From Acetivibrio ethanolgignens (GTDB lineage: Bacteria > Bacillota > Clostridia > Lachnospirales > Lachnospiraceae), in NCBI RefSeq assembly GCF_001461035.1, contig NZ_LNAM01000153.1:1-64000 (forward strand): 64,000 nucleotides of DNA, given 5' to 3'. Shown here one piece after another: positions 194 to 22,883 of the stretch (position 1 is its first letter; each line of letters opens with the position of its first letter). The notes beneath the pieces are model-generated. The model was not told the origin of the DNA. It did not search any database and saw nothing but the letters and a program-made list of their open reading frames with translations. Position numbers and translations under genes: made by a program.

Positions 194-1423
194 TTAAATT
201 CCTAACAGCTTCTCCAGTGCTTCTACACAAATACCTTCTGTCAGCTTGCCAATAATCTCGCCATCCTTAATCGCTACAGCACATGGAACCTCAGATACAC
301 CAAGTCTTACCGCCAGACCGTTGGACTTGTAAACATCAATACGGTTTACCTTTACCTTACCCTGGTGCTTCTTTTCAAATTCCTCAAAAACAGGAAGAAG
401 CTCCCGGCTCTTAGGAATAACTGCATTCCAGATATAGGAAATACCCGGCATGGATTTATCCATAATCTGGTTTTCAAATACTTCACTCTCAGCAATGTAC
501 TTCTCCGCTGCATAACCAGCGATTGCACCATCGCCAACTGCAGTAGAAACCTGCTTTAAGAACTTCTCTCTTACATCTCCAGCAGAAAATACACCAGGAA
601 TATTGGTTTCCATCCTCTCATTTGTCAGAATATAGCCCTGACGGGTCATATCTATCATACCCTCGAATATTTCGGTATTTGGTACATAACCAATAAACAT
701 AAAACAGGTATCTACAGGTACATCGATGATTTCCTCTGTCTTTGTATTCTTAAGAGCAACACTTCTAAGATGCTCTGCATCACCGCGGAACTCATACGGC
801 ATGGTATTCCAGATAAACTCCATCTTAGGATTAGCCAGAGCTTCACCCTTTGCAATTTCATTGCAATCCATCTTGCCCTCTTCATGCATAACACTCACAA
901 TAACTCTGCTTGCAAATTTTGTCAGGAACATACCCTCTTCAATCGCTGCATCACCGGAACCAATCACCATAACGGTCTTATCTGTATTAGCTGCTGCATC
1001 ACAGGTTGCACAGAAGGAAATACCCTTGTCATACAGGAAATCAGCCTCTCCTGGAGCACCGGTAAGTCTCGGCTTTCCACCGGAAGCAATGATAACTGCC
1101 CTACACTCATAGTTTGTACGGAAGGTTTCAACCACCTTAGTATCTCCCTCCAGCTTTACGCCACGCACATCGGTTAATTTAAACTTAACACCAAACTTCT
1201 TTGCCTGCTTATGAAACAGCTCCATAAGACCAAGGCCGGTAGAACCTTCCGGAAAACCCGGATAATTTTCAATTTCATTCGTATAGGTAGCCAGACCGCC
1301 TACTAAAGCCTTTTCGATTACCAGAGTATTTAGTCTTGCACGGCCACAGTAAATTGCCGCTGTTAGACCTGCAGCACCACCACCAATAATAACAACGTCA
1401 TACTTTTCTATTTTTTTCTTCAT
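194..1423 (-). CDS. Thioredoxin-reductase-like flavoprotein with C-terminal thioredoxin-fold domain
   Basis: This 409-residue cytosolic FAD/NAD(P)H disulfide oxidoreductase shows the FAD motif GGGAAG at residues 14-19. The redox-active pair CATC sits at 138-141 and an NAD(P)H-site GSGDAA at 155-160. Ordinary TrxB ends near residue 310; here about 85 extra residues form a thioredoxin-like domain. In that domain the usual WCxxC position reads IWNAVIPKS and has no cysteine, so it may bind a partner rather than do redox chemistry. It is the last gene of a leftward operon with two YeeE halves and TusA, which suggests electrons for sulfur (thiosulfate, persulfide or possibly selenium) handling. Calling it the housekeeping TrxB would be less certain. 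ATG with an upstream GGCGGGTTTC ribosome site. Confidence 0.85.
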   Translation of the reverse strand: MKKKIEKYDVVIIGGGAAGLTAAIYCGRARLNTLVIEKALVGGLATYTNEIENYPGFPEGSTGLGLMELFHKQAKKFGVKFKLTDVRGVKLEGDTKVVETFRTNYECRAVIIASGGKPRLTGAPGEADFLYDKGISFCATCDAAANTDKTVMVIGSGDAAIEEGMFLTKFASRVIVSVMHEEGKMDCNEIAKGEALANPKMEFIWNTMPYEFRGDAEHLRSVALKNTKTEEIIDVPVDTCFMFIGYVPNTEIFEGMIDMTRQGYILTNERMETNIPGVFSAGDVREKFLKQVSTAVGDGAIAGYAAEKYIAESEVFENQIMDKSMPGISYIWNAVIPKSRELLPVFEEFEKKHQGKVKVNRIDVYKSNGLAVRLGVSEVPCAVAIKDGEIIGKLTEGICVEALEKLLGI

Positions 1424-1444: not shown

Positions 1445-1993
1445 TTACATAAAGAATTTTGCCAGCAGCCTACTTCCGATAAATGCTCCGATAAGCAAGA
1501 AGAAAGCAAATACCCAGCCAGACAGAGAAAGCGAAGCAATACCAGAATACAATGCTCCGATATTACATCCACCTGCCAGTCTTGCACCATAGCCCATTAA
1601 AAGTCCACCTAAAACAGCAGCTACAACCTGCTTTAGGGATTTAATCTTTTTAAACTTGAACTGAGAGGCTAAAAGTGTTGCCAGCAACGCTCCTGCGATA
1701 ATACCAAAGTTCAGCCAGGAGCCGGTGTGGTTTAAAATTCCGTTATTTAAGGTTGCCTGTGCTCCCTCGCTGGAAAAATAATACCACTTATCTACATTGC
1801 CGCCTACAAGCCGGTAAAGCCACGCACCCCAGTTTGCAAAGGTTCCGGATACTCCCCAAGGAGAACCTGTACTCGCAAAAATCGCAATCTGGAAAATAGA
1901 TAACAATACCGCTCCGGTTACATATGTAAATGGATTTTTGAAAATTTTAATATAGTAAGGATTCTTACTTACCTTATCCCAAAAAGCCTTCAA
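1445..1993 (-). CDS. YeeE/YedE-family sulfur transport protein, C-terminal half type
   Basis: This 182-residue membrane protein has several hydrophobic segments and the family signature GGCNIG at residues 141-146, preceded by GARLA. The family (DUF395, YeeE/TsuA) imports thiosulfate through conserved cysteines. Full-length YeeE has about 350 residues in two pseudo-repeats. Here the repeats are encoded by two genes, this one and the 234-residue gene at 2277-2981, with TusA between them. The two are inferred to assemble into one channel. Selenium compounds are an alternative cargo. Confidence 0.8.
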   Translation of the reverse strand: MKAFWDKVSKNPYYIKIFKNPFTYVTGAVLLSIFQIAIFASTGSPWGVSGTFANWGAWLYRLVGGNVDKWYYFSSEGAQATLNNGILNHTGSWLNFGIIAGALLATLLASQFKFKKIKSLKQVVAAVLGGLLMGYGARLAGGCNIGALYSGIASLSLSGWVFAFFLLIGAFIGSRLLAKFFM

Positions 1994-2020: not shown

Positions 2021-2248
2021 TTAATTTGTTTTCTCAATAACGATTTCCCATTCACCGTCATCAACTTCTTCAATTTCAACGTTATGTCCGTTATTTCTTG
2101 CCCATTCAGGGATATTTTTCATAGCACAGCTGTGGTCAATCTGAGCAATGATAACATCACCAACTGCTGCCTTTTCCATCTGTTTCTGAACCTTCATCAA
2201 AGGTACCGGACAGGCTTCTCCTAAACAATCAATTGTAAATTCTGCCAT
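2021..2248 (-). CDS. TusA-family sulfur carrier
   Basis: This 75-residue protein has the TusA signature: Cys8, then CPVP with Cys13 as the persulfide-carrying residue. TusA-like proteins accept sulfur and pass it on; YeeD/TsuB partners the YeeE thiosulfate channel. The ATG at 2248 was chosen because AGGAGG lies 9 bases upstream and the CxxE...CPxP motif begins at once; longer readings add an unrelated leader. It lies between the two YeeE halves, fitting a channel-plus-acceptor unit. Confidence 0.88.
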   Translation of the reverse strand: MAEFTIDCLGEACPVPLMKVQKQMEKAAVGDVIIAQIDHSCAMKNIPEWARNNGHNVEIEEVDDGEWEIVIEKTN

Positions 2249-2276: not shown

Positions 2277-2981
2277 TTATTCGTTATTTCCCATACGTTT
2301 CTTTTCATATAAATCTGCCGCAATATATAAAAGGCCAATAATAGCAAGCTGTAGAATCACAGCTCCAGCCCAGCCAAATACATCCGGCAGGAAAATCTTA
2401 GGTGCTGTTGCATTAAAATGAAGTGTCCACCAGCCCATATGGTTTGCACCAATCAGAGAACCAATGACAAAAAAGAACAGACTTAAAATCTGCATACCAA
2501 AGCCTTCACCTACACGCATCAGGGTACCCGAAGCACAACCTCCTGCGATAACCATACCGATACCGAACATAATACCGCCTACTGCTGTTGCAAGACTAAT
2601 TGGCATAATATAGCTCTGTCCCGGAATTGTCCCGCTGTTTATAAATGCTCCATATTTAATTGCGGTAAATCCAATGGTTGTAATGGCCAATGCAATCAAT
2701 ACTGCTCTGGTAACGGAAGTTGATCCGGTAATGCAAGGGTCTCTTAAAGAGGCAGTAAAACAAAAACGAGACTTCTGCAAAATAAATCCGAAACAGCATC
2801 CAAAGGTCCAGTACAGTGCCAAAGTACCATTCTTTAAACCAAGAAAAATACCAAGAGCTACAATCAGCACAAAGACAGCAAAGCCAATCGGAAGCTGATT
2901 TTTCTTCTTTTTCCGTTTACTATTGCTTCTGCGGATTGTAGATGTCTGTGTAGTTTGTGTTTCACCTACATTTTCTGGCAT
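2277..2981 (-). CDS. YeeE/YedE-family sulfur transport protein, N-terminal half type
   Basis: This 234-residue membrane protein opens with a basic, Ser/Thr-rich cytosolic tail (about 30 residues with KRKKKK). Membrane segments follow, with the YeeE marks SRFC at 71-74 and GGCASG at 147-152. It is the promoter-proximal gene of the operon and corresponds to the first repeat of a full YeeE. It likely pairs with the 182-residue protein two genes downstream. The charged N-terminal extension is unusual for the family. Confidence 0.8.
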   Translation of the reverse strand: MPENVGETQTTQTSTIRRSNSKRKKKKNQLPIGFAVFVLIVALGIFLGLKNGTLALYWTFGCCFGFILQKSRFCFTASLRDPCITGSTSVTRAVLIALAITTIGFTAIKYGAFINSGTIPGQSYIMPISLATAVGGIMFGIGMVIAGGCASGTLMRVGEGFGMQILSLFFFVIGSLIGANHMGWWTLHFNATAPKIFLPDVFGWAGAVILQLAIIGLLYIAADLYEKKRMGNNE

Positions 2982-3178: not shown

Positions 3179-4078
3179 ATGTTATTAGAGCATGTTATAA
3201 TGTTTTGCAAAATAGCAAATGAAAAGAGTATTTCTAAGGTCGCACAAGCAAATCATATATCCCAGCCTGCTTTAAGTCTTCAAATGCAACGACTGGAGGA
3301 AGAGCTGGGGGTTAAGCTGTTTGAACGCTCTAACCGTGGTATCCAGCTTACAAAGGCTGGCATAATTATGCAAAAATACGGCCTCCAGTTTATGCAAAGC
3401 TATGATAATCTCCGCGAAGAACTTGACAATCTGAAATCCAGCAAGGTTACCTTTCGTATTGCCGCCTCTCCAGTTATCTGTGATTATGCTCTGCCTTGCA
3501 TTTTGTATAAAGCAAACCAGAAGTTCCCGGACTATTCTTTTACCTTAAATGGTTTTCCGTCCAATGAGGTCATCGCCCAGATACGCAATGAGCAGGCAGA
3601 TTTAGGCTTTATTGTAGGAAACTGCAGGGATGATGACATTGTATGTAATGATGCTTTTGTAGATAAGATTTATCTGGTTGCCAAAACCGGTTATAATATC
3701 AAATCCATTCATTCCCTTGACGATTTAAAAAGGTATCCTCTGATTATGCTGAATGAAAATTTCAGCTCTTACCGACTGGTGTACAATTATTTAAAGCAGA
3801 AGGGCTGTACAACAGAGAATTTTAAAATCAATTATCACTTAAATACAACCGAAGCCGTAAAAAGTGCCGTTATTGCCGGTCACGGTCTGGCTTTTTTACC
3901 TTATATGGCAATAAAAAAAGAAGTTTATATGAAGGAGCTCCAGATTATAGAGTTTCCTGATTTTAATTTAAATTATGATGTCCATTCCATTTACCGGACA
4001 AAGGAGGGTTCTCTGGGAACCACACAAAAAGAAATTATCCAGTATCTTATTCACAACGTAAATAAGAATATCTGTTAG
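3179..4078 (+). CDS. LysR-family transcriptional regulator
   Basis: A 299-residue DNA-binding protein. Residues 1-60 form the winged HTH, with the typical SISKVAQANHISQPALS run and LFERSNRGIQLT. Residues 90-295 are the periplasmic-binding-like effector domain. It is divergent from the YeeE/TusA/TrxB operon, so it probably controls sulfur uptake, as CysB/CysL/CymR-type LysR proteins do; the effector is unknown. GAGAGGGG precedes the ATG. Its last four bases overlap the end of the convergent TusA gene. Confidence 0.92.
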   Translation: MLLEHVIMFCKIANEKSISKVAQANHISQPALSLQMQRLEEELGVKLFERSNRGIQLTKAGIIMQKYGLQFMQSYDNLREELDNLKSSKVTFRIAASPVICDYALPCILYKANQKFPDYSFTLNGFPSNEVIAQIRNEQADLGFIVGNCRDDDIVCNDAFVDKIYLVAKTGYNIKSIHSLDDLKRYPLIMLNENFSSYRLVYNYLKQKGCTTENFKINYHLNTTEAVKSAVIAGHGLAFLPYMAIKKEVYMKELQIIEFPDFNLNYDVHSIYRTKEGSLGTTQKEIIQYLIHNVNKNIC

Positions 4079-4290
4079 ATTCTTTTTACATACAGCTCCC
4101 AGATACCATTCATAGGCTCTACAATCTCGAATCTGAGACCGCTTTTTTTACAATACTCGGTAATAGATTCCACAACACAGCAATGGTCTGTAATCAGCTT
4201 AAGCTCCTCACCGGCTTTAAACTCCTTACACTGCTTAAGCTTCATAATCGGTATAGGACACATATCACCCAAACAGTTTAATTCTTTCAA
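4075..4290 (-). CDS. Second TusA-family sulfur carrier
   Basis: A 71-residue TusA-like protein with CLGDMCPIP: Cys6 and Cys11, the latter in CPIP as the likely persulfide site. Unlike the other copy it has further cysteines (a CC pair near residue 38 and one near 47). It stands alone, convergent with the LysR gene (4-base overlap), so it is probably a monocistronic member of the same sulfur network. AGGAG precedes the ATG. Confidence 0.85.
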   Translation of the reverse strand: MKELNCLGDMCPIPIMKLKQCKEFKAGEELKLITDHCCVVESITEYCKKSGLRFEIVEPMNGIWELYVKRI

Positions 4291-4381: not shown

Positions 4382-5515
4382 ATGAGAATTCCATTTTACA
4401 GTCCATTTCACGGAAAAAATGAAACAGCTTACATAACAGCTTGTCTAAAAAGCTCTCTGGCAACCGGCGGTAACTTCTCCCGTCAAGCCCTGGGGGCTTT
4501 AAAGCAGTTGTTTTGCAGAGAAAATCTCCTTCTTGTTCCAACCTGCTCTTCTGCATTAGAGCTTTCTATAGCTCTAATGCCTCTGGAGTCTGGCGACAAA
4601 GTTCTCCTTCCCTCCTTTAATTTCCCATCTGCCGCTAATGCCGTTCTGCAAAAAGGGTTGACTCCCGTTTTTTGCGATATTGACCCAGCGACCCAGAATA
4701 TTACTTTGAATGAAATAAAAAACCAAATGACTAACCGGACAAAGGCTGTAATTACTGTAGATTATGCAGGAATTGCCTGCGATTATGACACCCTATATCC
4801 CTTTACCAAAGACAACGGACTTTTTCTTATTGAAGATGCTGCTCAAAGTCTTGGTTCTTTTTATAAAAATGAGCCCTTGGGAATCCAGGGTGATTTATCC
4901 GGAATCAGTTTTCATTCTACCAAAAATATTATATGTGGCGAAGGCGGCCTTTTTTTCTGCCAGGATTCGGAACTTTTTGAAAAAGCATGCATCTACCAGA
5001 TGCACGGCACAAACCGCCAGGCCTTTCTAAACGGCCTGTGTGACCGCTATACCTGGCGGCAGGAGGGTACTAGCTTTCCTTTAAATGAGCTGTCCTGTGC
5101 TCTTTTACTTTCCCAGCTGGAAGAACTAGAAGCCATCTCTGATTACCGGCGGGAACGGCTTTTTTCCTATATTTCTCTATTAAAGCCACTGGAAGAAAAG
5201 GGACTCGCAAAACAGATGAAAATACCGGATTACTGTACGCCTAACGGTCATTTGTATTACCTACGGTTTTCTACTCCTGCCTTAATGGAGGAGGTACGCC
5301 TTCTTTTAGCCAGAAAGGGCATAGATGCCAGAACTCACTATGTTCCTCTTCACGCTTCTCCGATGGGGCAAAAGCTTGGCTATCATCCAGAGGAGCTTCC
5401 CGAAAGTATGCGTACCTATGAAACCCTTCTTCGCCTTCCTCTCCATACGGCTCTTACCCCGATGGAGCAGGAGGAGATATGTGACATCCTTTTAAACTGG
5501 GGGAAGAAGCGATGA
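4382..5515 (+). CDS. DegT/DnrJ/EryC1-type sugar aminotransferase (ArnB/WecE-like)
   Basis: A 377-residue PLP enzyme that would transaminate a nucleotide keto-sugar. EDAAQ at 151-155 holds the PLP-contacting Asp, and the Schiff-base Lys181 sits in FHSTKNIICGEGG, where the G(E/D)GG run is typical. Length fits the family. Its stop overlaps the start of the next gene (ATGA), so the two are translationally coupled. Together with the ArnC-like glycosyltransferase domain next door it recalls ArnB-ArnC, making a lipid-linked 4-amino sugar. The actual sugar cannot be read from sequence. Confidence 0.88.
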   Translation: MRIPFYSPFHGKNETAYITACLKSSLATGGNFSRQALGALKQLFCRENLLLVPTCSSALELSIALMPLESGDKVLLPSFNFPSAANAVLQKGLTPVFCDIDPATQNITLNEIKNQMTNRTKAVITVDYAGIACDYDTLYPFTKDNGLFLIEDAAQSLGSFYKNEPLGIQGDLSGISFHSTKNIICGEGGLFFCQDSELFEKACIYQMHGTNRQAFLNGLCDRYTWRQEGTSFPLNELSCALLLSQLEELEAISDYRRERLFSYISLLKPLEEKGLAKQMKIPDYCTPNGHLYYLRFSTPALMEEVRLLLARKGIDARTHYVPLHASPMGQKLGYHPEELPESMRTYETLLRLPLHTALTPMEQEEICDILLNWGKKR

Positions 5516-7512
5516 ACAATACACCCAAAATAGAAACCCTGGGAATTGTCATCCCTGTCTATCGCTCTACTGAGACCGTCCGGCTTTTACTGGAGCAGCT
5601 CTCAATAATTTTAGCTCCGCTTTGCTCTTACCATGTTTATCTGGTAGATGACAGTGCTGATTTTAACATCTCTGCCTATTTAAAGGAGCGTTGTTCAGGA
5701 AAACAGGTCACGCTTATTACTTTGACCAAAAATTCAGGCCAGCAAAATGCCGTTTTGTGTGGTCTTCGTTTTGCCTGCCGTCATCCGGCAGTTCTCACCA
5801 TGGATGACGACCTGCAACACCCGCCAGAGATTGTTCCGGCTCTATACCGAAAGCTTTCCGAGGGGTTTGACCTCGTCTATGCTCTACCGGAAAATCATGA
5901 CAAAAGCCTGCTTCGATGTTTGGGAAGTCGTCTTCGTGATTTTTTCTTTCCCACAGCAAAGGTGTCAAGCTTTCGTATTATGACTGGTGAGGTAGCAAAA
6001 AAAGCAGCTTCCTTTCATGGTTGTTTTTTCTATTTTTCTGCAGAAGTTTTTAAAAATCCTGCAAACGGCAGAGACCTGCAGACAGGAAATCTATTTTATC
6101 AAAAGCCTGCTCGTTGCTTTGGTAAAAGCGGCTATAGCTTAAAAAAACTTATTATTTTATATGGAAAGCTGCTTGTATACTATACACCCCTTTCCGCTCT
6201 GACTACTTTTTTAAAAAAGGAGTGTAACAATTTGTATGAAATAAAAGAAATCTCGCCAAAACTTATGGTTCTGGGTGGCTCCAACTGCCAGCTTCATGCC
6301 CTTGAGCGGGCAAGAGAACGCTCCATAGTCACAATCCTGGCTGATTATACAAAAAATCCGCCAGCAAAAGAGCTTGCCGATATACATGAACCAGTCAGCA
6401 CTTTTGATGCTCCAGCCTGTATCGAAGCGGCAAAGCACCATCACATCCAGGGCGTCATGACCTTAGGTACTGACCAGCCGGTATTAACTGCTGCCCTGAC
6501 AGCTAAGGCTCTTGGTCTTCCCAGTTTTTTAACAGAAGCTAAAGCACGTTCTGTTACCAATAAAAAACAAATGAAACAACTTCTTTCGCAAAACAATATA
6601 AAAACTGCCAGATACCTGTTTCTTTCCAAAGAAGGCACTTTTTACGATACCGCAGGAAATCCGGCAGAATTTACCTTAAAGCCGCCTTATGTTTTAAAGC
6701 CTCTGGATTCCCAGGGACAACGGGGTATTTTTAAACTATACACAAAGGAAGCCGTCCTTGAAAGGCTCCCTGAAACCCTTTCCTTTTCAAGAGAGGATAT
6801 GGCTCTGGTAGAGGAATTTTACGAAAGTGATGAAATTACGGTAAGCGGCTGGATAAAGAACCGTGCCCTTACTATTTTAACAATAACAGACCGGCTTTTA
6901 TATCCAGATACTACCCATATTGGTGTCTGTATTGGTCACCGCTTTCCTTCCATACATATAAACCGCTATGAGGAAATCAAGACTGTATGCGATCAGCTTA
7001 CCCATGTATTTTCTTTGGAAAACGGTCCCTTTTATCTCCAGCTTCTGGTTGGTGGACAGGGAATTTTCGTAAATGAACTGGCCTGCCGTATCGGTGGTGC
7101 CTTTGAGGATGTAACAATTCCGTATCTTACAGGCTTTTCCATCCTGGATGCCGTAATCGACGGAGCTTTAGGCTATCCTGTTTCCTTTCCGCTGACACCG
7201 GATTTTCGTTGTGATACTGGGAAAAAAGCTTCTTTTGTTCTACTGCTATTCTGCCATCCAGGAAGGATTGCACATATTACAGATAAAGACAAGCTTTTAT
7301 CCCTTCCTTACGTTTTGGACTGTGGCTTTAACTACGCAGAAGGCAGTCAGATTCCTGTAATGGAAAATGCAACCGCCCGCTTTGGACACGCTGTCCTTGT
7401 CGGTACGAAAGAGAGCCTCGCCCGGGATATCAAGGACTTTTACAAGCAGCTTCAGGTATTAGATGAAAATGGAAAAAATCTTATCCAAACCTTTAATGAA
7501 ATACAAATTTAG
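5512..7512 (+). CDS. Fusion of GT2 (polyprenyl-phosphate type) glycosyltransferase and ATP-grasp ligase
   Basis: A 666-residue two-domain protein. Residues 8-235 are a GT-A fold GT2 domain: VIPVYRS start, metal-binding DDD at 98-100, and RCFGKSGYSLKK at 201-212 as in ArnC/dolichol-phosphate-mannose-synthase-like enzymes. The membrane helices that normally follow are absent. Residues about 250-600 are an ATP-grasp domain with KPLDSQGQRG (Lys396), VEEF at 433-436 and metal-binding Asn521-Glu522 in VNELACRIGG. The ATP-grasp part should form an amide or peptide-type bond to a carboxylate. Inference: it decorates the amino group installed by the upstream aminotransferase. This domain pairing is unusual. 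Confidence 0.82.
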   Translation: MNNTPKIETLGIVIPVYRSTETVRLLLEQLSIILAPLCSYHVYLVDDSADFNISAYLKERCSGKQVTLITLTKNSGQQNAVLCGLRFACRHPAVLTMDDDLQHPPEIVPALYRKLSEGFDLVYALPENHDKSLLRCLGSRLRDFFFPTAKVSSFRIMTGEVAKKAASFHGCFFYFSAEVFKNPANGRDLQTGNLFYQKPARCFGKSGYSLKKLIILYGKLLVYYTPLSALTTFLKKECNNLYEIKEISPKLMVLGGSNCQLHALERARERSIVTILADYTKNPPAKELADIHEPVSTFDAPACIEAAKHHHIQGVMTLGTDQPVLTAALTAKALGLPSFLTEAKARSVTNKKQMKQLLSQNNIKTARYLFLSKEGTFYDTAGNPAEFTLKPPYVLKPLDSQGQRGIFKLYTKEAVLERLPETLSFSREDMALVEEFYESDEITVSGWIKNRALTILTITDRLLYPDTTHIGVCIGHRFPSIHINRYEEIKTVCDQLTHVFSLENGPFYLQLLVGGQGIFVNELACRIGGAFEDVTIPYLTGFSILDAVIDGALGYPVSFPLTPDFRCDTGKKASFVLLLFCHPGRIAHITDKDKLLSLPYVLDCGFNYAEGSQIPVMENATARFGHAVLVGTKESLARDIKDFYKQLQVLDENGKNLIQTFNEIQI

Positions 7513-7525
7513 GAGATTTGCGACT

Positions 7526-8482
7526 ATGAAAAAACGTACATTTTTACTTTTTATTGTTTTTGCCCTGGGAGTATTTTCTCTCAGTGGCTGCTCCTCTAAG
7601 GATGCCAAGGAGGAAACCTTCACCATCGCCGAGCAGTTTGGCATTGCTTATGCTCCCTTAAATATTATGAAGGAGCTGGGCATACTGGAAAAAAAGCTTC
7701 CCGGTGTTTCTATCGAATGGAAGCAGTTTGGCGGTCCGACCGCCATTCGTGAAGGCATGCTAAACGGTGAAATCGATTTTGGTTTTATGGGTATCAGTCC
7801 TGTTTTAGTTGGCATTGACAACGGCATGGACTGGAAATATGCAACAGGCATCAGCTCCAACCAGGTAGCCATCGTTACTGACCGTCCTGAGCTTAACAGC
7901 CTTGCAGACTTTACTCCGGAAGATAAGATTGCCATTCTTTCTCCTGGCTGCACCCAGCATGTTCTTCTCTGCATGCTGGCTAAAAAGGAGCTTTCTGATG
8001 CTCACTGCCTTGATAACCAGACCGTATCGATGTCACATCCGGATGCGGCCAATGCTCTGATTTCCGATACAGAAATTGCTGCTCACGTCGCAACCCCTCC
8101 TTATATTCAGGAGGAGCTCTCCCATGGTATGCATATCATTGCCGACGGGGAGGATATTATGGGTGAACCTTTTACCTTTATCAGCGGCGTTGCCATGACA
8201 AAATTCCATGAAACCCATCGGGACTGGTATGATGCTTTTATAGAAACCCTGGAAGAATCTATCGCTTATATTAACAACAACAAAAAAGAAACAGCAGCTC
8301 TTTTAGCCCCTGTTTACGGTATTAGCGAGGAGGAGCTTTTAGAGCAGATGAACTATAATGGTACCATCTATTCTACGAAGCTTTCCGGTATTGAAAAAAT
8401 GAGTCAGGCTATGGCAGAAACCGGATTTATAAAAAGGGCACCCGCCTTTGAAGATATTATTTTTGACAATGTAAACCAGTAA
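7526..8482 (+). CDS. ABC transporter substrate-binding lipoprotein (SsuA/NMT1-like)
   Basis: A 318-residue exported lipoprotein. A signal peptide with lipobox LSGC gives lipid-anchored Cys22. The body starts FTIAEQFGIAYAPLNIMKELG and resembles the nitrate/sulfonate/taurine/thiamine-precursor binding family. The start at 7526 is preferred over the longer frame because AGGAG lies 10 bases upstream and the signal peptide begins there. It follows the GT2/ATP-grasp gene by 13 bases and leads the permease and ATPase genes. The ligand is unknown; sulfonates would fit the sulfur genes nearby. Confidence 0.85.
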   Translation: MKKRTFLLFIVFALGVFSLSGCSSKDAKEETFTIAEQFGIAYAPLNIMKELGILEKKLPGVSIEWKQFGGPTAIREGMLNGEIDFGFMGISPVLVGIDNGMDWKYATGISSNQVAIVTDRPELNSLADFTPEDKIAILSPGCTQHVLLCMLAKKELSDAHCLDNQTVSMSHPDAANALISDTEIAAHVATPPYIQEELSHGMHIIADGEDIMGEPFTFISGVAMTKFHETHRDWYDAFIETLEESIAYINNNKKETAALLAPVYGISEEELLEQMNYNGTIYSTKLSGIEKMSQAMAETGFIKRAPAFEDIIFDNVNQ

Positions 8483-8494
8483 GGAGGAACACCT

Positions 8495-9253
8495 ATGAAA
8501 AAGAAAAGACTCCTTTGGGCAGCCATTTTATTAGCAGTCTGGGAGATTAGTGTAAAATTGTCTCATATTTCACCCTTATTATTTCCCAGTGTAGAAGAGG
8601 TATTAAAAACACTGTATCAGGATCTTTTTCACGGAGACCTTCTAATACAGACCCTTTCCTCCCTGGAAATCATCGGCATTGGAATGCTTCTTGCCGCTTT
8701 TTTTGCCATTGTACTAAGCCTTTTCTCCCTTTTTCATCCCCTGGCAGAAGGGCTGATTGATACCATTACAACCATTGCCCATCCTCTGCCTGGGCTGGCA
8801 CTTTTGCCTCTTATTATTATCTGGTTTGGCACTGGTGATTCGGCTATTATCGCCATAATCGTTCACTCTGCCCTTTGGCCTCTTTTACTAAATCTTCTGA
8901 CTGGTTTTTCCAATACCCCTTCTCTCTATACCGATATTGGAAAAAATCTCTCCATGAGCAATACCGCCATTACTCTGGAAATTCGGCTTCGTTATGCTCT
9001 TCCTTATCTTATCTCCGGCCTTAAAATCGGCTGGGCAAGAGCATGGCGTGCTTTTATCAGTGCTGAGATGGTATTTGGTGCTGTAGGGAAAAAGGGAGGT
9101 CTGGGATTTTACATTTTAACTAAACGTACCTTTATGGATACTGCAGGGCTTTTTGCCGGAATTATTTTAATTGTTATTATCGGAATTTTAGTTGAGGATA
9201 TATTCTTTTCTCTAATTGAAAAAAGAACAACCAGAAAGTGGGGAATGAATTGA
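8495..9253 (+). CDS. ABC transporter permease (SsuC/TauC type)
   Basis: A 252-residue inner-membrane permease with about six hydrophobic helices. It has the binding-protein-dependent loop near residues 165-190 (RLRYALPYLISGLKIGWARA), where the EAA motif is conserved. It follows the binding protein by 12 bases with AGGAGG ahead of the ATG. Its TGA overlaps the ATG of the ATPase gene, indicating coupled translation of the importer. Confidence 0.87.
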   Translation: MKKKRLLWAAILLAVWEISVKLSHISPLLFPSVEEVLKTLYQDLFHGDLLIQTLSSLEIIGIGMLLAAFFAIVLSLFSLFHPLAEGLIDTITTIAHPLPGLALLPLIIIWFGTGDSAIIAIIVHSALWPLLLNLLTGFSNTPSLYTDIGKNLSMSNTAITLEIRLRYALPYLISGLKIGWARAWRAFISAEMVFGAVGKKGGLGFYILTKRTFMDTAGLFAGIILIVIIGILVEDIFFSLIEKRTTRKWGMN

Positions 9254-9966
9254 TGTTTGAAGTAAAAGATTTATCAGTAAGCTTCCAAAGGGATGGCGAA
9301 GCTTTCTGTGTACTGGATAACCTGTCTCTTTCCATTCCCTCTGGACAATTTTTTGTCCTCCTTGGAAAAAGCGGTTGCGGAAAAACTACACTTTTAAGAA
9401 CCTTGGGAGGCTTTTTAAAGCCCGACTCCGGTTCTATTCAAATTGATGGGAAAACCGTAACGACCCCTTCCAAAGAACGAGTGATGGTTTTTCAAAGCTT
9501 TGATCAGCTGTTTCCCTGGTTTACCCTGGAAGAAAATCTTCTTTATGCCCTAAAAAAGTGTGACATTTCCAAATCGGAGGGTAAGACTATTGCAAAAGAA
9601 TGTCTGGCTATGACCGGGCTTTCCGGCTTTGAAAACCAATATCCTTCAGCCCTTTCCGGCGGCATGAAGCAGCGTGGAGCCCTGGCACGAGCCCTTTCCT
9701 TAAAACCCTCCATTCTTTTAATGGATGAGCCCTTTTCCAGCCTTGACTACCTAACCCGCCAAAGTATACAGAGCCTTGTAAGAGAGCTTACGAAAAAAAC
9801 AGGCTGCACCGTTCTTTTAGTTACTCACGATATTGAAGAAGCAATTACTTTAGGTGACCGCATTGGAATTTTAGATAAAACAACAAAAAAAATCTCTTCC
9901 TTCTATCTTCCGTCAGAGCATACAAAAAAAGAACTTCTTGAATGCTTAATCAAAGAGCTGGCCTAA
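9253..9966 (+). CDS. ABC transporter ATPase (SsuB/TauB type)
   Basis: The ATPase of the importer, 237 residues from the ATG that overlaps the permease stop (TGATG). It shows Walker A GKSGCGKTT, Q-loop VFQSFDQLFPW, signature LSGGMKQR, Walker B ILLMDEPFSSLD and the switch His in LLVTHD. A start 15 bases upstream is also open but lies inside the permease end. It is convergent with the GT-C gene, with a 4-base overlap of the two ends. Confidence 0.9.
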   Translation: MFEVKDLSVSFQRDGEAFCVLDNLSLSIPSGQFFVLLGKSGCGKTTLLRTLGGFLKPDSGSIQIDGKTVTTPSKERVMVFQSFDQLFPWFTLEENLLYALKKCDISKSEGKTIAKECLAMTGLSGFENQYPSALSGGMKQRGALARALSLKPSILLMDEPFSSLDYLTRQSIQSLVRELTKKTGCTVLLVTHDIEEAITLGDRIGILDKTTKKISSFYLPSEHTKKELLECLIKELA

Positions 9967-11549
9967 GTATCCAGCTCTTTTAATTTATACACCAGTACAT
10001 GGCTATATTTTTCCTGTCCCATCACTCCGATAACTCTGCTGCCATAGACTGTATCGGTAAACTCTCCTATCAGCTCCCCCTTTTCCTCACATAGCCTTTT
10101 AAGCTCCGGTACAAAACGAATATCTCCGTAAATTACATTAAAATACGGCCTGTGTTCATGTAGATAGTCAAGCTCAGTAGAATAAAGAATATACTCTATT
10201 CCATTTTCTTTGATATATGCCTCTATTCCCTTTTCCCTCCATACATAAGGAAGGTTCCGATAATCTCTTAAACAGCCCTGCGAAAAATAAAATTCTGTAT
10301 TCAGATTGGCAATTACTGTGGAATCCTTCGGTACCAGTTCTTCTATCTGTTCCAGGTATGCTGCATGGCTCCCCTTTGAAAGCCATGGTCTTATCTGCTC
10401 TATAGATATCAAAACTGTTACGGCCAATATTAACGCATAAATAAACCTTTTTCCTTTCTCCTCCTGCTCTGCTAAAAACAAGGCCAATAAAAGATATCCA
10501 AAGGGAAAGAAAAAGAATACACTGGTCTGGTTATATCTTCCGATAAAAATCATTCCACCAAGCAGTCCCATTGTCCCTGAAATCAAAGCTCCAGGAAGCC
10601 TCCTTTTCATAACCAGAGCATAAATCCCCATAAACACCATAAGGAAAGCAAATAACAAAAGGGAAAATCTAAGCTCTGTCACATAATAGGTTCCGCTTTG
10701 TCCTGTAAATAGCCGTTCAAAAAATCCCCTCAGTTCACTGACTTTTGCAGCCAGAGAAGCATCAACATCAAATTCCATGGCACCATTCTGAAAATAATGC
10801 TTTAAAAATTGCGAATCAAAAGAATAGCTGATTAAAACAAAAACTGCCGCAAAGGCTCCCGTTACTCCAATGTAAGTCACCAAAGGAAGAATATCCTTTT
10901 TTATCTGTAAAAACAGATAAAAAAGGATAGCTCCAAAGGAGCAGGCCAGAAGAAAACTGTTGGGATGAATCCCTATGGAAATCCCTGTTATTACCGCCGT
11001 CAGCACGACCTTCATTACACCAGGCTCTCGTTGTCCCAGCAGTAAAAAAAGTCCTGCTATAAAAGCTACCCCAAGCAGGATTTCCTGCCTTGCAAAATGA
11101 GAAGCATAAATAAACTCGACATCCAGACTAAACAATACCGTTACAGCCAGGGCAAGCTTTTCTCTTTTTGTTATTCTTTTAATAAGAAAGTAGAATATTA
11201 TCAAAAATACAATTCCTGCTGCTAGAGATAACAAACGGACACTTTCAATAGAGTATCCGAATATTCGGATAAATCCCATTTGTAATAGGTGAAATAAGCT
11301 CTTTATTGCATGGGGATATCTTGGGCGGGCATCGAAAAAATGCTCCGTTACTGACAGACTTTTTTCTGTCAACATATCTCTCGACAATCCCGCCAGCCAG
11401 CTCTCGTCCGAATGTACAAAAGGAAACTGTGTCAGAAATGCAGAAGAAAAAAAGCCGTATGCCAATATATACAGAAAAAACAGTTTATCTACAAGTCCTC
11501 TTTTTTTCTCCTTCACTTTCCCCACTTCCTTACTGATTATTTCTTTCAT
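9963..11549 (-). CDS. GT-C family membrane glycosyltransferase (ArnT/PMT-like)
   Basis: A 528-residue polytopic membrane protein with about 10-12 hydrophobic helices and a soluble C-terminal part of some 120 residues. The first loop has HSDESW (Asp48-Glu49), matching the acidic DD/DE motif that GT-C enzymes use with polyprenyl-phosphate sugars. This start has GGAGGGA 11 bases upstream; the longer frame has no such site. It is convergent with the aminotransferase/GT2-ATP-grasp/ABC cluster and is a candidate to use its lipid-linked sugar outside the membrane. The acceptor is unknown. Confidence 0.75.
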   Translation of the reverse strand: MKEIISKEVGKVKEKKRGLVDKLFFLYILAYGFFSSAFLTQFPFVHSDESWLAGLSRDMLTEKSLSVTEHFFDARPRYPHAIKSLFHLLQMGFIRIFGYSIESVRLLSLAAGIVFLIIFYFLIKRITKREKLALAVTVLFSLDVEFIYASHFARQEILLGVAFIAGLFLLLGQREPGVMKVVLTAVITGISIGIHPNSFLLACSFGAILFYLFLQIKKDILPLVTYIGVTGAFAAVFVLISYSFDSQFLKHYFQNGAMEFDVDASLAAKVSELRGFFERLFTGQSGTYYVTELRFSLLLFAFLMVFMGIYALVMKRRLPGALISGTMGLLGGMIFIGRYNQTSVFFFFPFGYLLLALFLAEQEEKGKRFIYALILAVTVLISIEQIRPWLSKGSHAAYLEQIEELVPKDSTVIANLNTEFYFSQGCLRDYRNLPYVWREKGIEAYIKENGIEYILYSTELDYLHEHRPYFNVIYGDIRFVPELKRLCEEKGELIGEFTDTVYGSRVIGVMGQEKYSHVLVYKLKELDT

Positions 11550-11720
11550 TCTAGCAGAAATCCCTCCTTCCCACAAGGCAACACTTCTTGTTATTGCTTT
11601 AACATATATAATATAACAAAATGCTATAACTCTATTTGTAAAAACTAAAGTACAATAGTAAATAGATAACGCATTACTACTACAAGAATGATACATACCA
11701 ACAACTAAAGGAGGTTTTTT

Positions 11721-12638
11721 ATGAGCTCTTTTGCTAAAAAAATAACAATCTTTTTGGTATTAGCTCTGTTTACCACCTGCTTAACGGGCTGCAATTCCCA
11801 CACCTTTGCAGAAACGGAAAATTCACTCATTGTTTCTGCAAAAGAACTTACGGACTACATGGGAAAGGAAAATGTTGTCCTGGTCGATATGCAGTCTCCA
11901 GAGGATTATGGAAAAGAACATCTTGAGGGGGCAGTAAATATTCCCGCTGAGAGCATTGTAATTAATGTTCCTGTTAAGAATATGCTGACATCAAAGAAAA
12001 AAATGGAAAGCATCATGAGTGCCAGCGGCATTTCCAATGACACTCTGGTAATCGCTTACGATACAGATAAAATGAGTGCTTCCCGGCTTCTTTGGTCGCT
12101 CTTCATGTACGGTCACGAAAATGTAAAGGTCGTTGATGGTGGTTTTGAAACTATTAAGGCAGCCGGACTTTCCATCACGGACCAGGTTCCTTCTGTAACA
12201 GAAGCCGTCTTTACTGCTGGAGAACCATCCAGCGAATGGTTGGTAGATTCCTCCCGGGTATTAGAGCAGGTAAACAGCCCACGGGACAACGTAATTCTTC
12301 TAGATGTTCGTTCTGATGAAGAATACTATACGGAAGGCAAGATTCCTACATCTGTTATGATGAACTTTACGGGAAACTTTTTCGCGGATGGAACCTTTAA
12401 AACAACAGAAATCACAAAAATTAATTATCTGGAAAATAAAATCTATCCTGAAGATGAAATCATTATTTATTGTAAAACTTCTTTCCGTGCAGCACCAGTT
12501 TTTGTACAACTGTATGAAGCCGGTTATCGGAATATCAAGCTATATGATGGAGCCTTTTTAGAATGGTCCTCTAATTCTGACAATCCTGTTGAAATGCCAG
12601 ATGGAGCAGCTGCACCTTCTAAAAAAGATGCTTCCTGA
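11721..12638 (+). CDS. Tandem-rhodanese lipoprotein
   Basis: A 305-residue exported lipoprotein with lipobox LTGC and two rhodanese domains. In the first (about 45-150) the active-site loop reads AYDTDKMSASR and lacks the cysteine. The second (about 175-290) keeps it in YCKTSFRAAP. One inactive plus one active domain is the layout of thiosulfate/mercaptopyruvate sulfurtransferases, which normally act in the cytosol; here the enzyme is on the outer face of the membrane. AGGAGG precedes the ATG. It probably shares a transcript or regulon with the next rhodanese gene. Confidence 0.85.
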   Translation: MSSFAKKITIFLVLALFTTCLTGCNSHTFAETENSLIVSAKELTDYMGKENVVLVDMQSPEDYGKEHLEGAVNIPAESIVINVPVKNMLTSKKKMESIMSASGISNDTLVIAYDTDKMSASRLLWSLFMYGHENVKVVDGGFETIKAAGLSITDQVPSVTEAVFTAGEPSSEWLVDSSRVLEQVNSPRDNVILLDVRSDEEYYTEGKIPTSVMMNFTGNFFADGTFKTTEITKINYLENKIYPEDEIIIYCKTSFRAAPVFVQLYEAGYRNIKLYDGAFLEWSSNSDNPVEMPDGAAAPSKKDAS

Positions 12639-12692
12639 TACTTAATTTTAACGCCGCTTTGCGGTAGTATCCAAAGAAAGGATGAATTGTTT

Positions 12693-13652
12693 ATGAAAAA
12701 ATTACTTGCTTTATCACTTACCTTTGTTTTGACCTGTGGTCTTATCACAGGCTGTGGCAACAAAACAGAGGCTCCTGCTGAGACTCAGACTCCAGTAGTA
12801 GAAACTTCTGCTCCTGAGACCGAAGCCCCTGAAGCCGAGGTTCCTGAAACCGATGTAGTAGCAGAGGCTGCTATGGGTTATTTTGCAAACTTCCCGGAAG
12901 ACAGACACATGATTGGTGTTCCTGATTTATTTGCGAAGATGGATGCCGGTGAGGATATGCTTATTATTGATATTCGTGCTGCTGAAGATTATGCTGCCGG
13001 CCACTTAAAGGGTGCAGTTAATGTACCTTACGCTACTGTTGGTGAATCCTTAGATATCATCCCGGATGACATTCCAATTTTCGTAAACTGCTATTCCGGA
13101 CAGACCTCTTCCCAGACAGTTGCTTTATTAAATGTTGCAGGAAAATATGCTACCAATATTCAGGGTGGCTTCAATAATGGTATTTCTACTGCTGAAAACT
13201 ATGAAAATTACATCACTACTGAAGAAGCAACTCTTTCTGGTGACGAATATCCTGTTGACCCGGCAATTAAGGCTGCCATTGTTGATTACTATGCAAAGGC
13301 AACCTCTGATACCTTCAAGTCCTTTAACTTCCCTGTGGAAAGCTTAGGAGAGCTTGTGGAAGCTGAGAGTGATGATTATACCATTCTCTCTATCCGTTCC
13401 GCAGAGGATTATGCTAAGGGTCATATTGCTGGTGCTATGAATATTCCTTTTGGTAAGGGTATGCAGGAGTCCTTCTCCACTATCCCTACTGACAAGCCAG
13501 TAATCGTATACTGCTACTCCGGACAGACCTCTTCCCAGACTATGACTATCCTTCGTATGTTAGGCTATGAAGCATACAGCCTTGCAGGTGGTATGGGTAC
13601 TGAAGGAAAAGGCGGCTGGTTAGGTGCAGGCCTTCCTGTAGTTACAGAATAA
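12693..13652 (+). CDS. Lipoprotein with two active rhodanese domains
   Basis: A 319-residue lipoprotein with lipobox ITGC followed by a Pro/Glu/Thr-rich tether of about 40 residues and two rhodanese domains. Both keep the catalytic cysteine in the same loop, NCYSGQTSSQT and YCYSGQTSSQT, so they are probably an internal duplication. ATG at 12693 is preferred to the TTG six bases earlier. It lies 54 bases after the first rhodanese gene. Inferred role: extracytoplasmic sulfane-sulfur transfer feeding the YeeE/TusA system. The substrate is not known. Confidence 0.85.
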   Translation: MKKLLALSLTFVLTCGLITGCGNKTEAPAETQTPVVETSAPETEAPEAEVPETDVVAEAAMGYFANFPEDRHMIGVPDLFAKMDAGEDMLIIDIRAAEDYAAGHLKGAVNVPYATVGESLDIIPDDIPIFVNCYSGQTSSQTVALLNVAGKYATNIQGGFNNGISTAENYENYITTEEATLSGDEYPVDPAIKAAIVDYYAKATSDTFKSFNFPVESLGELVEAESDDYTILSIRSAEDYAKGHIAGAMNIPFGKGMQESFSTIPTDKPVIVYCYSGQTSSQTMTILRMLGYEAYSLAGGMGTEGKGGWLGAGLPVVTE

Positions 13653-13665
13653 TTCATTTTCTATT

Positions 13666-13721
13666 TATAAGGGAGTGTCGCAAAATAACTAAAATCTAGT
13701 TATGAAGCGATGCTCCTTATA
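13666..13721. repeat. Long imperfect inverted repeat between convergent genes
   Basis: TATAAGGGAGTGTCGC at 13666-13681 pairs imperfectly with GCGATGCTCCTTATA at 13707-13721, with an inner ATAACT/AGTTAT pair. It lies between the rhodanese gene and the convergent regulator. It lacks a T run, so it is a weak terminator; a small non-autonomous mobile element is possible. Confidence 0.5.
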
Positions 13722-13760
13722 TAGAACAAGGACACCATTCAATCTTCTAATTTGGTGATT

Positions 13761-15482
13761 TTACTCTTTTCCAGATAGGTATGAAATTTTTCCCTTTCTC
13801 GCTTTTTTTACCTGTAAATGATATTCTTTTAACTTTCTATATAGGGTTGTTCTTGATATCTGCAGGATTTCTTCCATCTCCTGCCGTGTGTACCCAAGCT
13901 CTACCATCCTCCGTATCTGCTGCTCTTCCATTTCTTTTACAGAAGCCATCCTTGGGCGAAATTCCTTATCATAAAAATTGATTTCTTTTCCCTTATAGCT
14001 TCCATCCCGCACGATACACTCAAGAATCGTTTCCAGCATCCCTAAAGGAACACTTCGGCAATCCGACCAGATCCTTTCCATCAAAGACACGTTCACAATA
14101 TCCTTCTTCCTGCGGGTGCAATAGATTTTGTTATAGTACCGAAGTCCGGCGGCACAGTATTTCATAAAAAACTGTTTATTATTGTGGATGGTTGTTTCTG
14201 GACAAAGTATATGCTCTGATATTATCTGATAAAGTTTTTTACTGAAAGTATTTTCTTTTGCGAACACTCCTAAATCCATAATTGTACAGAATATAAACCT
14301 TACATTCACCGCTATAAAGCGTCCGCTTGAAATTTCCAGCTTTCCAGTCCGCATTATCTCTGCAAATTTATCCTGTAGATAAAGAGGCATCTGTTCCGGC
14401 TGTACAATCACCAGAATCCCACCATCCATATTTCTTACAACACCATACTCTCCTAATAAATAACTGTCCATCAAATCCCTGTATACATTTTGCATATAAA
14501 TAATTTTAATTGCATTCAGTCTGCGGTTTGAGTGGTTGGCAATTCCCTTTGCCAGCAATTCATTCATCGCCTGTTCTTCTCCGCAAATCAACAAATGTGA
14601 ATCCAGCTCTGCATATTTTGCAGCAATCTCCGTCCACTCACTTTCCATAAATTTTTCCAGCCATGGCAGTGTTACGATGGTTCCTGGTACAAAAGTCAGC
14701 GAATTGGTACTTATATTTTTATGAGGACGCAAACTGAAAATTAGGCCGTATTGGCCTTCGGTAATACTTACCTGTTTCCGATTCAGCAGCCCATAAAAAT
14801 TTTGTCCGTAATGATTGATGGTAACCTTTAAATTTTCTACGCTATAGCTTTCATCGATCCATTGGATAAATTCCGGATACACTTTGCAGATATTTTTTCC
14901 AATGAGTCCTGCATCAACGTAAAATTCTTCTTTAAAAGAATGATTTATATAAATAACATTTCCGTAAATATCCGTATAAAGAACCGCATCTTCCATCAGA
15001 TCCAGAATTGATTCAATCTGCAAAATTTTCTGACGTAGCCCTTTTTTTTCAATATGATTTATCATTCGCACAGCTACCAGATCCGCCATATTTTCCATAA
15101 ATGTAATAGTGGAATCTATGGTTTCAAACAGTGTTTTTACTCTGCTTTTCGGAAGAATCAAAGCAATCACACCCAGCACCTGTTTTTCATATCGGATGGG
15201 TACACCTACAAATCCCTGTATTTTACAGCTTTCAAACTGCTCACATTCCCGGCAGCTTGGAATCTGCCTTTTATTTTCTATCAGGAGATTATGATTATTG
15301 ATAAGCACATCTGATATTAAAGATCCGATCTTAATATCTTTATAAAGGGAAAAATATTTGAATTTACTTCCAACAATATCCATGTTAGAATCTGTGATAA
15401 TCACATCTGTATCCACTATGTCAGAAATTACAACTGCAAAATTATCCACAAAGCTTCTAATTTTTCCCAGTAAACTACTCAT
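13761..15482 (-). CDS. GAF-PAS-Fis regulator with degenerate AAA+ core
   Basis: This 573-residue cytosolic regulator has a GAF-like domain (about 15-150) with a cysteine triad at residues 77, 80 and 86. A PAS domain spans about 160-260, a region shaped like a sigma-54 AAA+ domain about 280-450, and a Fis-type HTH lies near the end (TRQEMEEILQISRTTLYRKL). Where Walker A should be the text is LLICGEEQAM, and no GAFTGA loop is seen, so it should not drive sigma-54. DhaR-type activators share this layout. It lies at the end of the liv-dha operon, on the same strand. ATG at 15482 follows GGAGGTC. Confidence 0.82.
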   Translation of the reverse strand: MSSLLGKIRSFVDNFAVVISDIVDTDVIITDSNMDIVGSKFKYFSLYKDIKIGSLISDVLINNHNLLIENKRQIPSCRECEQFESCKIQGFVGVPIRYEKQVLGVIALILPKSRVKTLFETIDSTITFMENMADLVAVRMINHIEKKGLRQKILQIESILDLMEDAVLYTDIYGNVIYINHSFKEEFYVDAGLIGKNICKVYPEFIQWIDESYSVENLKVTINHYGQNFYGLLNRKQVSITEGQYGLIFSLRPHKNISTNSLTFVPGTIVTLPWLEKFMESEWTEIAAKYAELDSHLLICGEEQAMNELLAKGIANHSNRRLNAIKIIYMQNVYRDLMDSYLLGEYGVVRNMDGGILVIVQPEQMPLYLQDKFAEIMRTGKLEISSGRFIAVNVRFIFCTIMDLGVFAKENTFSKKLYQIISEHILCPETTIHNNKQFFMKYCAAGLRYYNKIYCTRRKKDIVNVSLMERIWSDCRSVPLGMLETILECIVRDGSYKGKEINFYDKEFRPRMASVKEMEEQQIRRMVELGYTRQEMEEILQISRTTLYRKLKEYHLQVKKARKGKISYLSGKE

Positions 15483-15546
15483 ATTAAGACCTCCGCTTAT
15501 AAAGAAATAGGCTATCATAAGTTTTACTCATAATAGCCGATATCTC

Positions 15547-16023
15547 TTATTTCTTGCTAATTCTCACTTCGCAGACATCTTCACCATTTGCAATTGTTTT
15601 TCCAAGGTAGAAATCATAGTTCATTTTTTCACAGATTCCCCGGTCGCCATCCATGGCAATGTCACAAAGTACAGAACACTCTTCATCAGTTGCACCGAGT
15701 TTTTTCCATGCTGCAACCAATGGACAATAATGAAAGTCTACACTAAGTTTATCATCTGTGCAAGTATCTTCCATTTGGAAAATTTCTTTTACATTATCAT
15801 TGATGAATTCTTTATGGAATACATGAAGGTCATCTGTATGCGTATATTTTGTTTCCCCATGGAAACGGCCACATTCTAAAATTGCTTTATGTGCAAATTC
15901 ATCACTTAATCCTGCTTTTTTGCCTTCCTTGTACATAAGATACATCCATGTCGCTCTATGCTCAAAAGCTCCTCTCATATCCTTGATGTGCTGGCTTTTT
16001 GTTTCTGGTACATTCTTAATCAT
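15547..16023 (-). CDS. L-2-amino-thiazoline-4-carboxylate hydrolase-family protein
   Basis: A 158-residue protein resembling the ATC hydrolase family: a helical N-terminus, then VDFHYCPLVAAWKKLG and ECSVLCDIAMDGDRG, both family landmarks. The family name comes from an enzyme of L-cysteine formation from ATC, but most members have no proven reaction. It has several cysteines and histidines that could bind metal. ATG at 16023 follows AGGAGG; the longer frame would overlap dhaL. It closes the liv-dhaKL operon, hinting that the imported compound needs hydrolysis as well as phosphorylation. Confidence 0.72.
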   Translation of the reverse strand: MIKNVPETKSQHIKDMRGAFEHRATWMYLMYKEGKKAGLSDEFAHKAILECGRFHGETKYTHTDDLHVFHKEFINDNVKEIFQMEDTCTDDKLSVDFHYCPLVAAWKKLGATDEECSVLCDIAMDGDRGICEKMNYDFYLGKTIANGEDVCEVRISKK

Positions 16024-16060
16024 TTGTTTTTCCTCCTGAAAATATAATAATATTAAAACA

Positions 16061-16708: not shown

Positions 16709-16725
16709 GTTCCCATCTCCTTTAT

Positions 16726-22378: not shown

Positions 22379-22416
22379 AGTTTTTTATTTCCTTTCTTAC
22401 GTATTTTGATAATTGA

Positions 22417-22446
22417 ATTATAGCATTCTATTTATTAAGTTTTCAA
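22417..22446 (-). promoter_or_regulatory. Sigma-A promoter of the liv-dha operon
   Basis: On the minus strand TTGAAA (22446-22441), 18 bases, TATAAT (22422-22417), 39 bases ahead of livK. It is near-consensus for sigma-A, agreeing with a regulator that lacks the sigma-54-activating motifs. Confidence 0.75.
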
Positions 22447-22874: not shown

Positions 22875-22883
22875 TAAAGGGGA

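Follow-up and report, generated by a model that had tools for sequence, protein, structure and literature searches.

Within the first 64,000 nucleotides of contig NZ_LNAM01000153.1 of Acetivibrio ethanolgignens (Lachnospiraceae; assembly GCF_001461035.1), the stretch that we refer to as the window, lies a cassette of genes for a sugar aminotransferase, a protein that combines a family 2 glycosyltransferase (GT2) with an ATP-grasp ligase, an ATP-binding cassette (ABC) importer and a GT-C membrane glycosyltransferase, adjoined by genes for sulfur handling. We propose that this cassette, which is conserved but apparently undescribed, produces a lipid-linked, N-acylated amino sugar and exports it, and we judge the full pathway set out below to be somewhat probable. 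The proposal is built on the gene content and gene order of the cassette, their conservation, the fold and catalytic residues of its proteins and the single origin of the fusion.

A sequence-only reading of the window had suggested that an amino sugar is transferred to a lipid carrier and its amine acylated with a carboxylate. This stands as the best reading, given WecE matches in all 31 aminotransferases tested and the RmlB, RmlA or ArnE/F-like genes of some cassettes, with the chemistry being predicted. A search for fusions and their neighbours found that fused relatives share the cassette, but also that the earlier reading had missed the larger unit, which takes in the importer, two rhodaneses and a module of YedE, TusA, thioredoxin reductase and LysR genes. 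The importer, the secreted rhodaneses and the sulfur module are the most informative part of the locus.

Conservation of the cassette

We scanned 397 genomes of the family, 391 of the class and 398 of the phylum with a profile of the ATP-grasp domain and annotated the surroundings of matches, up to 20 kb, with custom-built profiles; we speak of full-context loci for the 29 in which 5 kb or more is available on each side of the ligase. Loci, genomes, contigs and families carry our own designations (L, G, C and f). Matches with E below about 1e-80 nearly all belong to the cassette family, one (L123) being a relative in a different context, and the weaker matches (about 1e-45 to 1e-66) lay, where inspected, in other loci, often of polysaccharide type. 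Used alone as the query of a contig search, the fusion sequence retrieved just one locus. The order aminotransferase, GT2, ligase, substrate-binding protein (SBP), permease, ATPase and convergent GT-C is largely kept across 38 loci, which come from no fewer than 18 families of the phylum, and because it recurs in dozens of genomes the arrangement is not due to chance. Clostridium citroniae WAL-17108 (L031) has the entire locus, fused protein included. Homologues standing without the aminotransferase among unrelated genes, the pattern that the sequence-only reading had named as counting against it, did not turn up: the aminotransferase is present in 35 of the 38 loci (26 of the 29 with full context), and in the other three, all f77 genomes where it seemed to be missing from the locus, a close match lies about 7-14 kb away.

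We rejected the view that this is a general polysaccharide locus; such loci do harbour related ATP-grasps from outside the family (L098-L104), yet neither this importer nor the sulfur genes accompany them. Another locus of the window's family, L037 (genome G027, 6719-14991), combines genes resembling RmlB and RmlA with two of SMR type, an aminotransferase scoring above the WecE cut-offs and two GT2s with a distant ATP-grasp (26% identity) between them, and has no importer or sulfur genes; on its gene content it is a parallel pathway of the Fuc4N type.

Aminotransferase and identity of the sugar

The aminotransferase belongs to the DegT/DnrJ family (PF01041, 249 bits), and its best NCBIfam match is the WecE-type model PRK11706, covering 372 of 375 positions. 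It scores under both WecE cut-offs (363 against 375 bits for PRK11706 and 313 against 435 bits for TIGR02379); the cassette orthologue L144 scores over both (523 and 465 bits, respectively). The WecE models match 31/31 cassette aminotransferases tested, and the pyridoxal phosphate-binding lysine, K181, is invariant across 31 orthologues. Elsewhere in the window's genome, on C154, an RmlB gene is found at 455 bits, above the cut-off, in a stretch (L173) that by inspection also seems to carry RmlD-, RmlC- and RmlA-like genes. RmlB was found in 26 of 28 cassette genomes tested; several loci have an RmlB-type gene inside or adjoining the cassette and two (L145 and L155) have RmlA-type genes. Because of the WecE matches, together with the RmlB and RmlA genes in cassettes and genomes, there is strong reason to expect that the sugar is dTDP-4-amino-4,6-dideoxygalactose (dTDP-Fuc4N).

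The GT2-ATP-grasp protein

As had been read from the sequence, the open reading frames of the aminotransferase (4382-5515) and of a 666-residue GT2-ATP-grasp fusion (5512-7512) are both present and are joined by an ATGA overlap. Pfam places PF00535 at residues 12-180 of the fusion, a weak ATP-grasp_4 match at 392-530 and LAL_C2 (PF18603; 33 bits, cut-off 29.4) at 578-639. The claim that the GT2 part keeps an ArnC-type motif and has lost its membrane helices also held: RCFGKSGYSLKK is present, and no membrane helix in this part passes a hydropathy scan. ArnC is the best NCBIfam match of the fusion (65 bits over residues 5-222), far under its cut-off of 529 bits. Most cassette GT2s are without membrane helices; the orthologues of L155 and L156 retain two at the C-terminus, which is consistent with loss of an anchor in the remaining ones. 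The acidic GT2 motifs D46-D47 and D98-D99-D100 are conserved, as are R155 and S206, and in the ligase part K396, E434, E522 and R526.

AlphaFold2, given an alignment of 39 rows, yielded a confident model of the whole fusion (mean pLDDT 93.2, pTM 0.87). Its best matches among solved structures fall on the ATP-grasp part, namely 4dim, the L-amino-acid ligase 3vot (TM-score 0.82 by target length) and RizA 4wd3, which places this part of the model closest in fold to carboxylate-amine ligases. Ligases of this class couple a carboxylate to an amine.

The earlier reading had set the fusion at the centre of a possible new pathway, but the fusion itself is not the novelty. A maximum-likelihood tree of the ligase domain, built with four fused proteins (window, C. 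citroniae, G314 and G386), unites these four on a single branch (100/100 support); a further fused form occurs in G001, divided between contigs. The other loci read have GT2 and ligase as two neighbouring genes. By this tree the fusion is a single-origin event within the Lachnospiraceae, and with one origin, against separate genes in most genomes, we rejected it as the key novelty.

Importer and the attached acid

The putative transcription unit extends past the fusion into the SBP, permease and ATPase (7526-9966) with gaps of at most 13 bases. The SBP scores 96 bits against TIGR01728, below the cut-off of 163.5, and its AlphaFold2 model (pLDDT 92.4) has SsuA or TauA as its top six Foldseek matches. 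A glutamine binds the sulfonate in both of these proteins, Q30 in TauA and Q36 in SsuA (PMC6906117, PMC3839906). The invariant Q38 of the cassette SBPs matches SsuA Q36 as aligned, and TauA Q30 only after a two-residue shift of the alignment. The acids that bind the amine in TauA are not conserved: the position of E106 holds Q, E, P or other residues, and no aspartate stands at that of D205. R76 is invariant in the cassette SBPs and is not common to SsuA or TauA. These residues weakly favour an acid with a sulfonate or a second anionic group over taurine, which we disfavour as the imported ligand since it bears no carboxylate and neither of TauA's amine-binding acids is conserved. As the fold is closest to SsuA/TauA, the acyl donor is likely to be an imported sulfonated or other anionic acid. 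That the importer supplies the acyl group is a conclusion in which we have moderate confidence; that its ligand is sulfonated is suggested less firmly, at a weak to moderate level.

The importer is present in 27/29 full-context loci (its ATPase in 24/29) and is placed after the ligase in 25/29. In the f63 loci L116, L118 and L119 an anion symporter of the DASS/CitMHS type (PF03600, PF00939, TIGR00785) takes its exact place. Because of this position, this exchange, and the absence of the importer from YedE/thioredoxin reductase modules that lack the cassette, the importer belongs with the glycoconjugate genes and probably provides the acyl donor.

GT-C, flippases and the lipid carrier

The GT-C enzyme with its DE motif (9963-11549), proposed by the sequence-only reading as a possible final transferase, proved to be a regular member of the cassette, usually convergent to it and present in 24 of 29 full-context loci; the motif stands near the N terminus, and D48, E49 and R57 are nearly invariant among orthologues. 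Its match to the PMT family is weak (PF02366, 23.7 bits, cut-off 22.7), and a sequence search of the PDB with it gave no match. Enzymes of the GT-C class take lipid-linked donors. Between the ligase and the SBP, loci of f118 have small EamA/SMR genes that score best against ArnE and ArnF in NCBIfam, and together these genes and the GT-C point to a lipid-linked intermediate; we hold the lipid carrier and the GT-C step with moderate confidence. The idea that the GT-C glycosylates the rhodanese lipoproteins via Ser/Thr/Pro-rich linkers was dropped, such linkers being rich in the window and some relatives and not generally.

Sulfur module and rhodaneses

At least one sulfur gene occurs in 27/29 full-context loci, LysR in 27/29, the second secreted rhodanese in 26/29 and YedE in 22/29. 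The best NCBIfam match of the LysR protein, below cut-off, is NF040786, a selenium-metabolism-associated LysR. PF04143 genes occur at only two sites in the window's genome, one of them beside the cassette. In the class sample the cassette is found in 18 of the 391 genomes and a YedE-linked thioredoxin reductase in 18, with 9 shared, an overlap far above expectation (hypergeometric 4e-9, uncorrected for kinship). Eight loci with a YedE/thioredoxin reductase module and no cassette have neither this importer nor the rhodaneses, which indicates that importer and rhodaneses travel with the glycoconjugate genes. Since the cassette adjoins the LysR/YedE/TusA/thioredoxin reductase module and two secreted rhodaneses, it probably serves or responds to sulfur acquisition. 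Display, capture and simple co-regulation are all possible roles in sulfur handling, and sulfur-dependent regulation of the cassette is weakly suggested.

Two variants of the surroundings were seen. In L109, L110, L111, L113, L146 and L149 the thioredoxin reductase gives way to a CoA-disulfide-reductase-like gene that bears a rhodanese, with a second Ssu-like importer nearby, and in L160 of f118 (6270-7705) a NapC/NirT-type multihaem cytochrome and a C_GCAxxG_C_C redox protein adjoin the cassette.

Proposed pathway and alternatives

In the pathway that we propose, RmlA and RmlB, encoded elsewhere in the genome, would provide dTDP-4-keto-6-deoxyglucose, which the aminotransferase would turn into dTDP-Fuc4N. 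The GT2 domain would then move Fuc4N onto undecaprenyl phosphate at the inner face of the membrane, and the fused ATP-grasp would form an amide between the amine of the sugar and a small carboxylate that the co-encoded SsuA-type importer would take up. The favoured donor would be a sulfonated carboxylate (sulfoacetate, sulfolactate, sulfopropionate or cysteate); a thiol acid or a plain dicarboxylate would also be possible. An ArnE/F-like or other flippase would turn the product outward, and the GT-C would pass the acylated sugar to an outer acceptor. A bolder form of the proposal, in which an imported sulfonated or thiol acid, joined by the ATP-grasp to lipid-linked Fuc4N, is shown at the cell surface and forms part of a hitherto undescribed system of the phylum for extracellular sulfur capture, together with the rhodaneses, YedE and TusA, is one that we advance tentatively and think rather unlikely.

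Several observations weigh against the pathway as drawn, the chemistry of the whole cassette being predicted from sequence and models. The window aminotransferase falls slightly short of the WecE cut-off, and a clear RmlB was not found in two of the 28 cassette genomes tested, both of f63 (G537 and G644), whose cassettes may differ in sugar or ligand. The GT2 is without membrane helices, so the lipid acceptor is deduced indirectly, and the window cassette contains no flippase gene. The Ser/Thr that aids sulfonate binding in SsuA and TauA is Ile in many cassette SBPs, and the ligand may accordingly not be a sulfonate. Finally, the cassette's own importer is missing from L146 and L149, which do have another Ssu-like importer nearby, and L159 and L162 show no clear sulfur gene in the stretch read.

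These points leave room for other explanations, of which the likeliest is an ordinary decoration of a surface glycan, with a common intracellular acid or amino acid as the acyl group and the importer and sulfur genes as merely co-regulated scavenging neighbours. ATP-grasps of the L-amino-acid-ligase type do use common amino acids, the importer resembles a sulfonate scavenging system, and LysR and YedE/TusA are sulfur genes; yet scavenging neighbours would not readily account for an importer that stands behind the ligase in 25 of the 29 full-context loci, for an unrelated anion symporter in that place in f63, or for YedE/thioredoxin reductase/LysR modules that lack importer, rhodaneses and glycoconjugate genes alike, and we regard this explanation as unlikely. 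The rhodaneses lend themselves to a different account, a surface carrier of thiol or persulfide, in which the ligase would add a thiol acid (cysteine or a mercapto acid) to Fuc4N, the rhodaneses would provide sulfane sulfur and YedE/TusA would take it up. The rhodanese lipoproteins and YedE accompany the cassette (26/29 for the second rhodanese and 22/29 for YedE), and YedE modules without the cassette have no rhodaneses. Direct signs of a thiol are absent, however, the SBP resembles binders of sulfonates and not of thiols, and YedE was not seen near the cassettes L147, L150, L152, L155 and L156, all of which makes this account quite improbable.

The lipid carrier might also be dispensed with altogether, if the ATP-grasp acylated the nucleotide sugar beforehand and a helix-less GT2 glycosylated a soluble acceptor. 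This would suit the loss of membrane helices from most cassette GT2s, but not the two helices kept in L155 and L156, the retention in 24/29 loci of a GT-C from a class that uses lipid-linked donors, or the ArnE/F-like flippases of f118, and we consider it at least as improbable as the thiol carrier. We prefer the lipid-linked, N-acylated amino sugar.

Comparison with known systems

The nearest described chemistry, which is partly comparable, is that of the type B flagellin of Clostridioides difficile, where Fuc3N is acylated by a taurine-Ala-Gly cap and mutants in the ATP-grasp gene CDR20291_0245, in GT3 or in CDR20291_0246 lose the terminal moiety (PMC5207245, PMC5207246). Its locus CDR20291_0243-0247 resembles the cassette in having a DegT aminotransferase, a GT2-family transferase and an ATP-grasp (the ATP-grasps being likened by description) and in yielding an amine-acylated amino-dideoxy sugar. 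It differs in its sugar, Fuc3N made through FdtB as opposed to the predicted Fuc4N through WecE, in its ornithine-cyclodeaminase-like and FemAB-like genes and its position next to fliC, and in that importer, GT-C, rhodanese and YedE/TusA genes are not reported there. The ornithine-cyclodeaminase-like and FemAB-like genes and fliC are absent around the window cassette and do not figure among the genes that recur in cassette loci, where unlabelled neighbours are not all annotated. In L038 (G010, 7074-10535) a DegT aminotransferase and an octopine-dehydrogenase-family gene flank a distant ATP-grasp from the same superfamily, a gene set reminiscent of the opine-like cap, an N-alkylated alanine-taurine, on C. 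difficile flagellin. The earlier statement that no described pathway with this fusion is known needs qualifying for this sulfonated Fuc3N cap, but otherwise agrees with our finding no description of the cassette in the open-access literature (subscription papers and preprints lay outside its scope).

In the Arn (L-Ara4N) pathway, ArnB-ArnC-ArnE/F-ArnT, a sugar aminotransferase is followed by GT2 transfer to undecaprenyl phosphate, a flippase and GT-C transfer. The cassette follows the same logic of steps, but with a dTDP-hexose and not a UDP-pentose, an ATP-grasp ligase in place of the ArnA/ArnD formyl chemistry, a GT2 without membrane helices, and an importer and sulfur genes in addition. With WecE/RffA of enterobacterial common antigen it shares the aminotransferase family and the predicted product dTDP-Fuc4N; no WecD/WecF-like genes are seen in the cassette, however, and acylation is predicted via ATP-grasp and not acetyl-CoA. 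SsuABC/TauABC share the binding-protein fold, the conserved sulfonate-binding glutamine and the ABC organisation, whereas the cassette has no SsuD/TauD oxygenase, does not conserve the amine-binding acids of TauA and is linked to glycoconjugate genes. The L-amino-acid ligases BL00235 and RizA share with the cassette ligase the ATP-grasp fold, the LAL_C2 domain and carboxylate-amine ligation (predicted in the cassette); the cassette ligase differs in being linked or fused to a GT2 and in its predicted amine substrate, an amino sugar.

Gene layout and surroundings

Features of the cassette and the adjoining sulfur genes in the window.
Feature	Position	Strand	Evidence
Thioredoxin-reductase-like flavoprotein, extended C-terminally	194..1423	-	TIGR01292, 320 bits; same cassette-side position in many genomes
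YedE/TsuA-type sulfur transporter, half-like gene	1445..1993	-	NF033796, 108 bits; PF04143
TusA-like sulfur carrier, copy 1	2021..2248	-	NF041048, 44 bits
YedE/TsuA-type sulfur transporter, second half-like gene	2277..2981	-	NF033796, 109 bits; PF04143
LysR regulator; divergent to YedE module, upstream of cassette	3179..4078	+	PF03466, PF00126; best NCBIfam match NF040786, below cut-off
TusA-like copy 2, between LysR and aminotransferase	4075..4290	-	Custom TusA profile, 102 bits; position conserved
WecE-type sugar aminotransferase, 377 aa	4382..5515	+	PF01041, 249 bits; PRK11706, 363 bits
GT2 part of fusion, ArnC/GtrB-like, without membrane helices	5512..6249	+	PF00535; D46-D47, D98-D100, R155, S206 conserved
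ATP-grasp part of fusion, predicted carboxylate-amine ligase	6250..7512	+	ATP-grasp_4, LAL_C2; K396, E434, E522, R526 conserved
SsuA/TauA-type substrate-binding lipoprotein (SBP)	7526..8482	+	TIGR01728, 96 bits; AlphaFold2 and Foldseek
ABC importer permease	8495..9253	+	PF00528; best NCBIfam matches SaoP, TauC, NtrB, SsuC
ABC importer ATPase	9238..9966	+	PF00005
GT-C (PMT/ArnT-like) membrane glycosyltransferase, DE motif	9963..11549, start possibly at 11696	-	PF02366, PF13231
Secreted tandem-rhodanese lipoprotein 1	11721..12638	+	PF00581; lipobox Cys24
Secreted tandem-rhodanese lipoprotein 2	12687..13652	+	PF00581; lipobox Cys23

Beyond the rhodaneses, positions 13761-17712 hold a DhaR-like regulator followed by DhaL- and DhaK-like genes (dihydroxyacetone kinase subunits). 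The stretch 22413-31844 has a low GC content (0.34-0.36), with GC skew reversed at 22-28 kb, and contains an ABC exporter-like gene pair (22884-26527) and a tyrosine-integrase-like gene (30447-31844); it is probably an integrated element.

Implications

A gene set held together across at least 18 families links the assembly of envelope glycans to the uptake of sulfur. Should the predicted conjugate exist, it would constitute a surface structure not yet described, with a make-up that is directly testable; it would give a broader setting to the rare sulfonated amino sugar found on C. difficile flagellin and would suggest a use for imported sulfonates in anaerobes that are barred from oxygen-dependent sulfonate cleavage.

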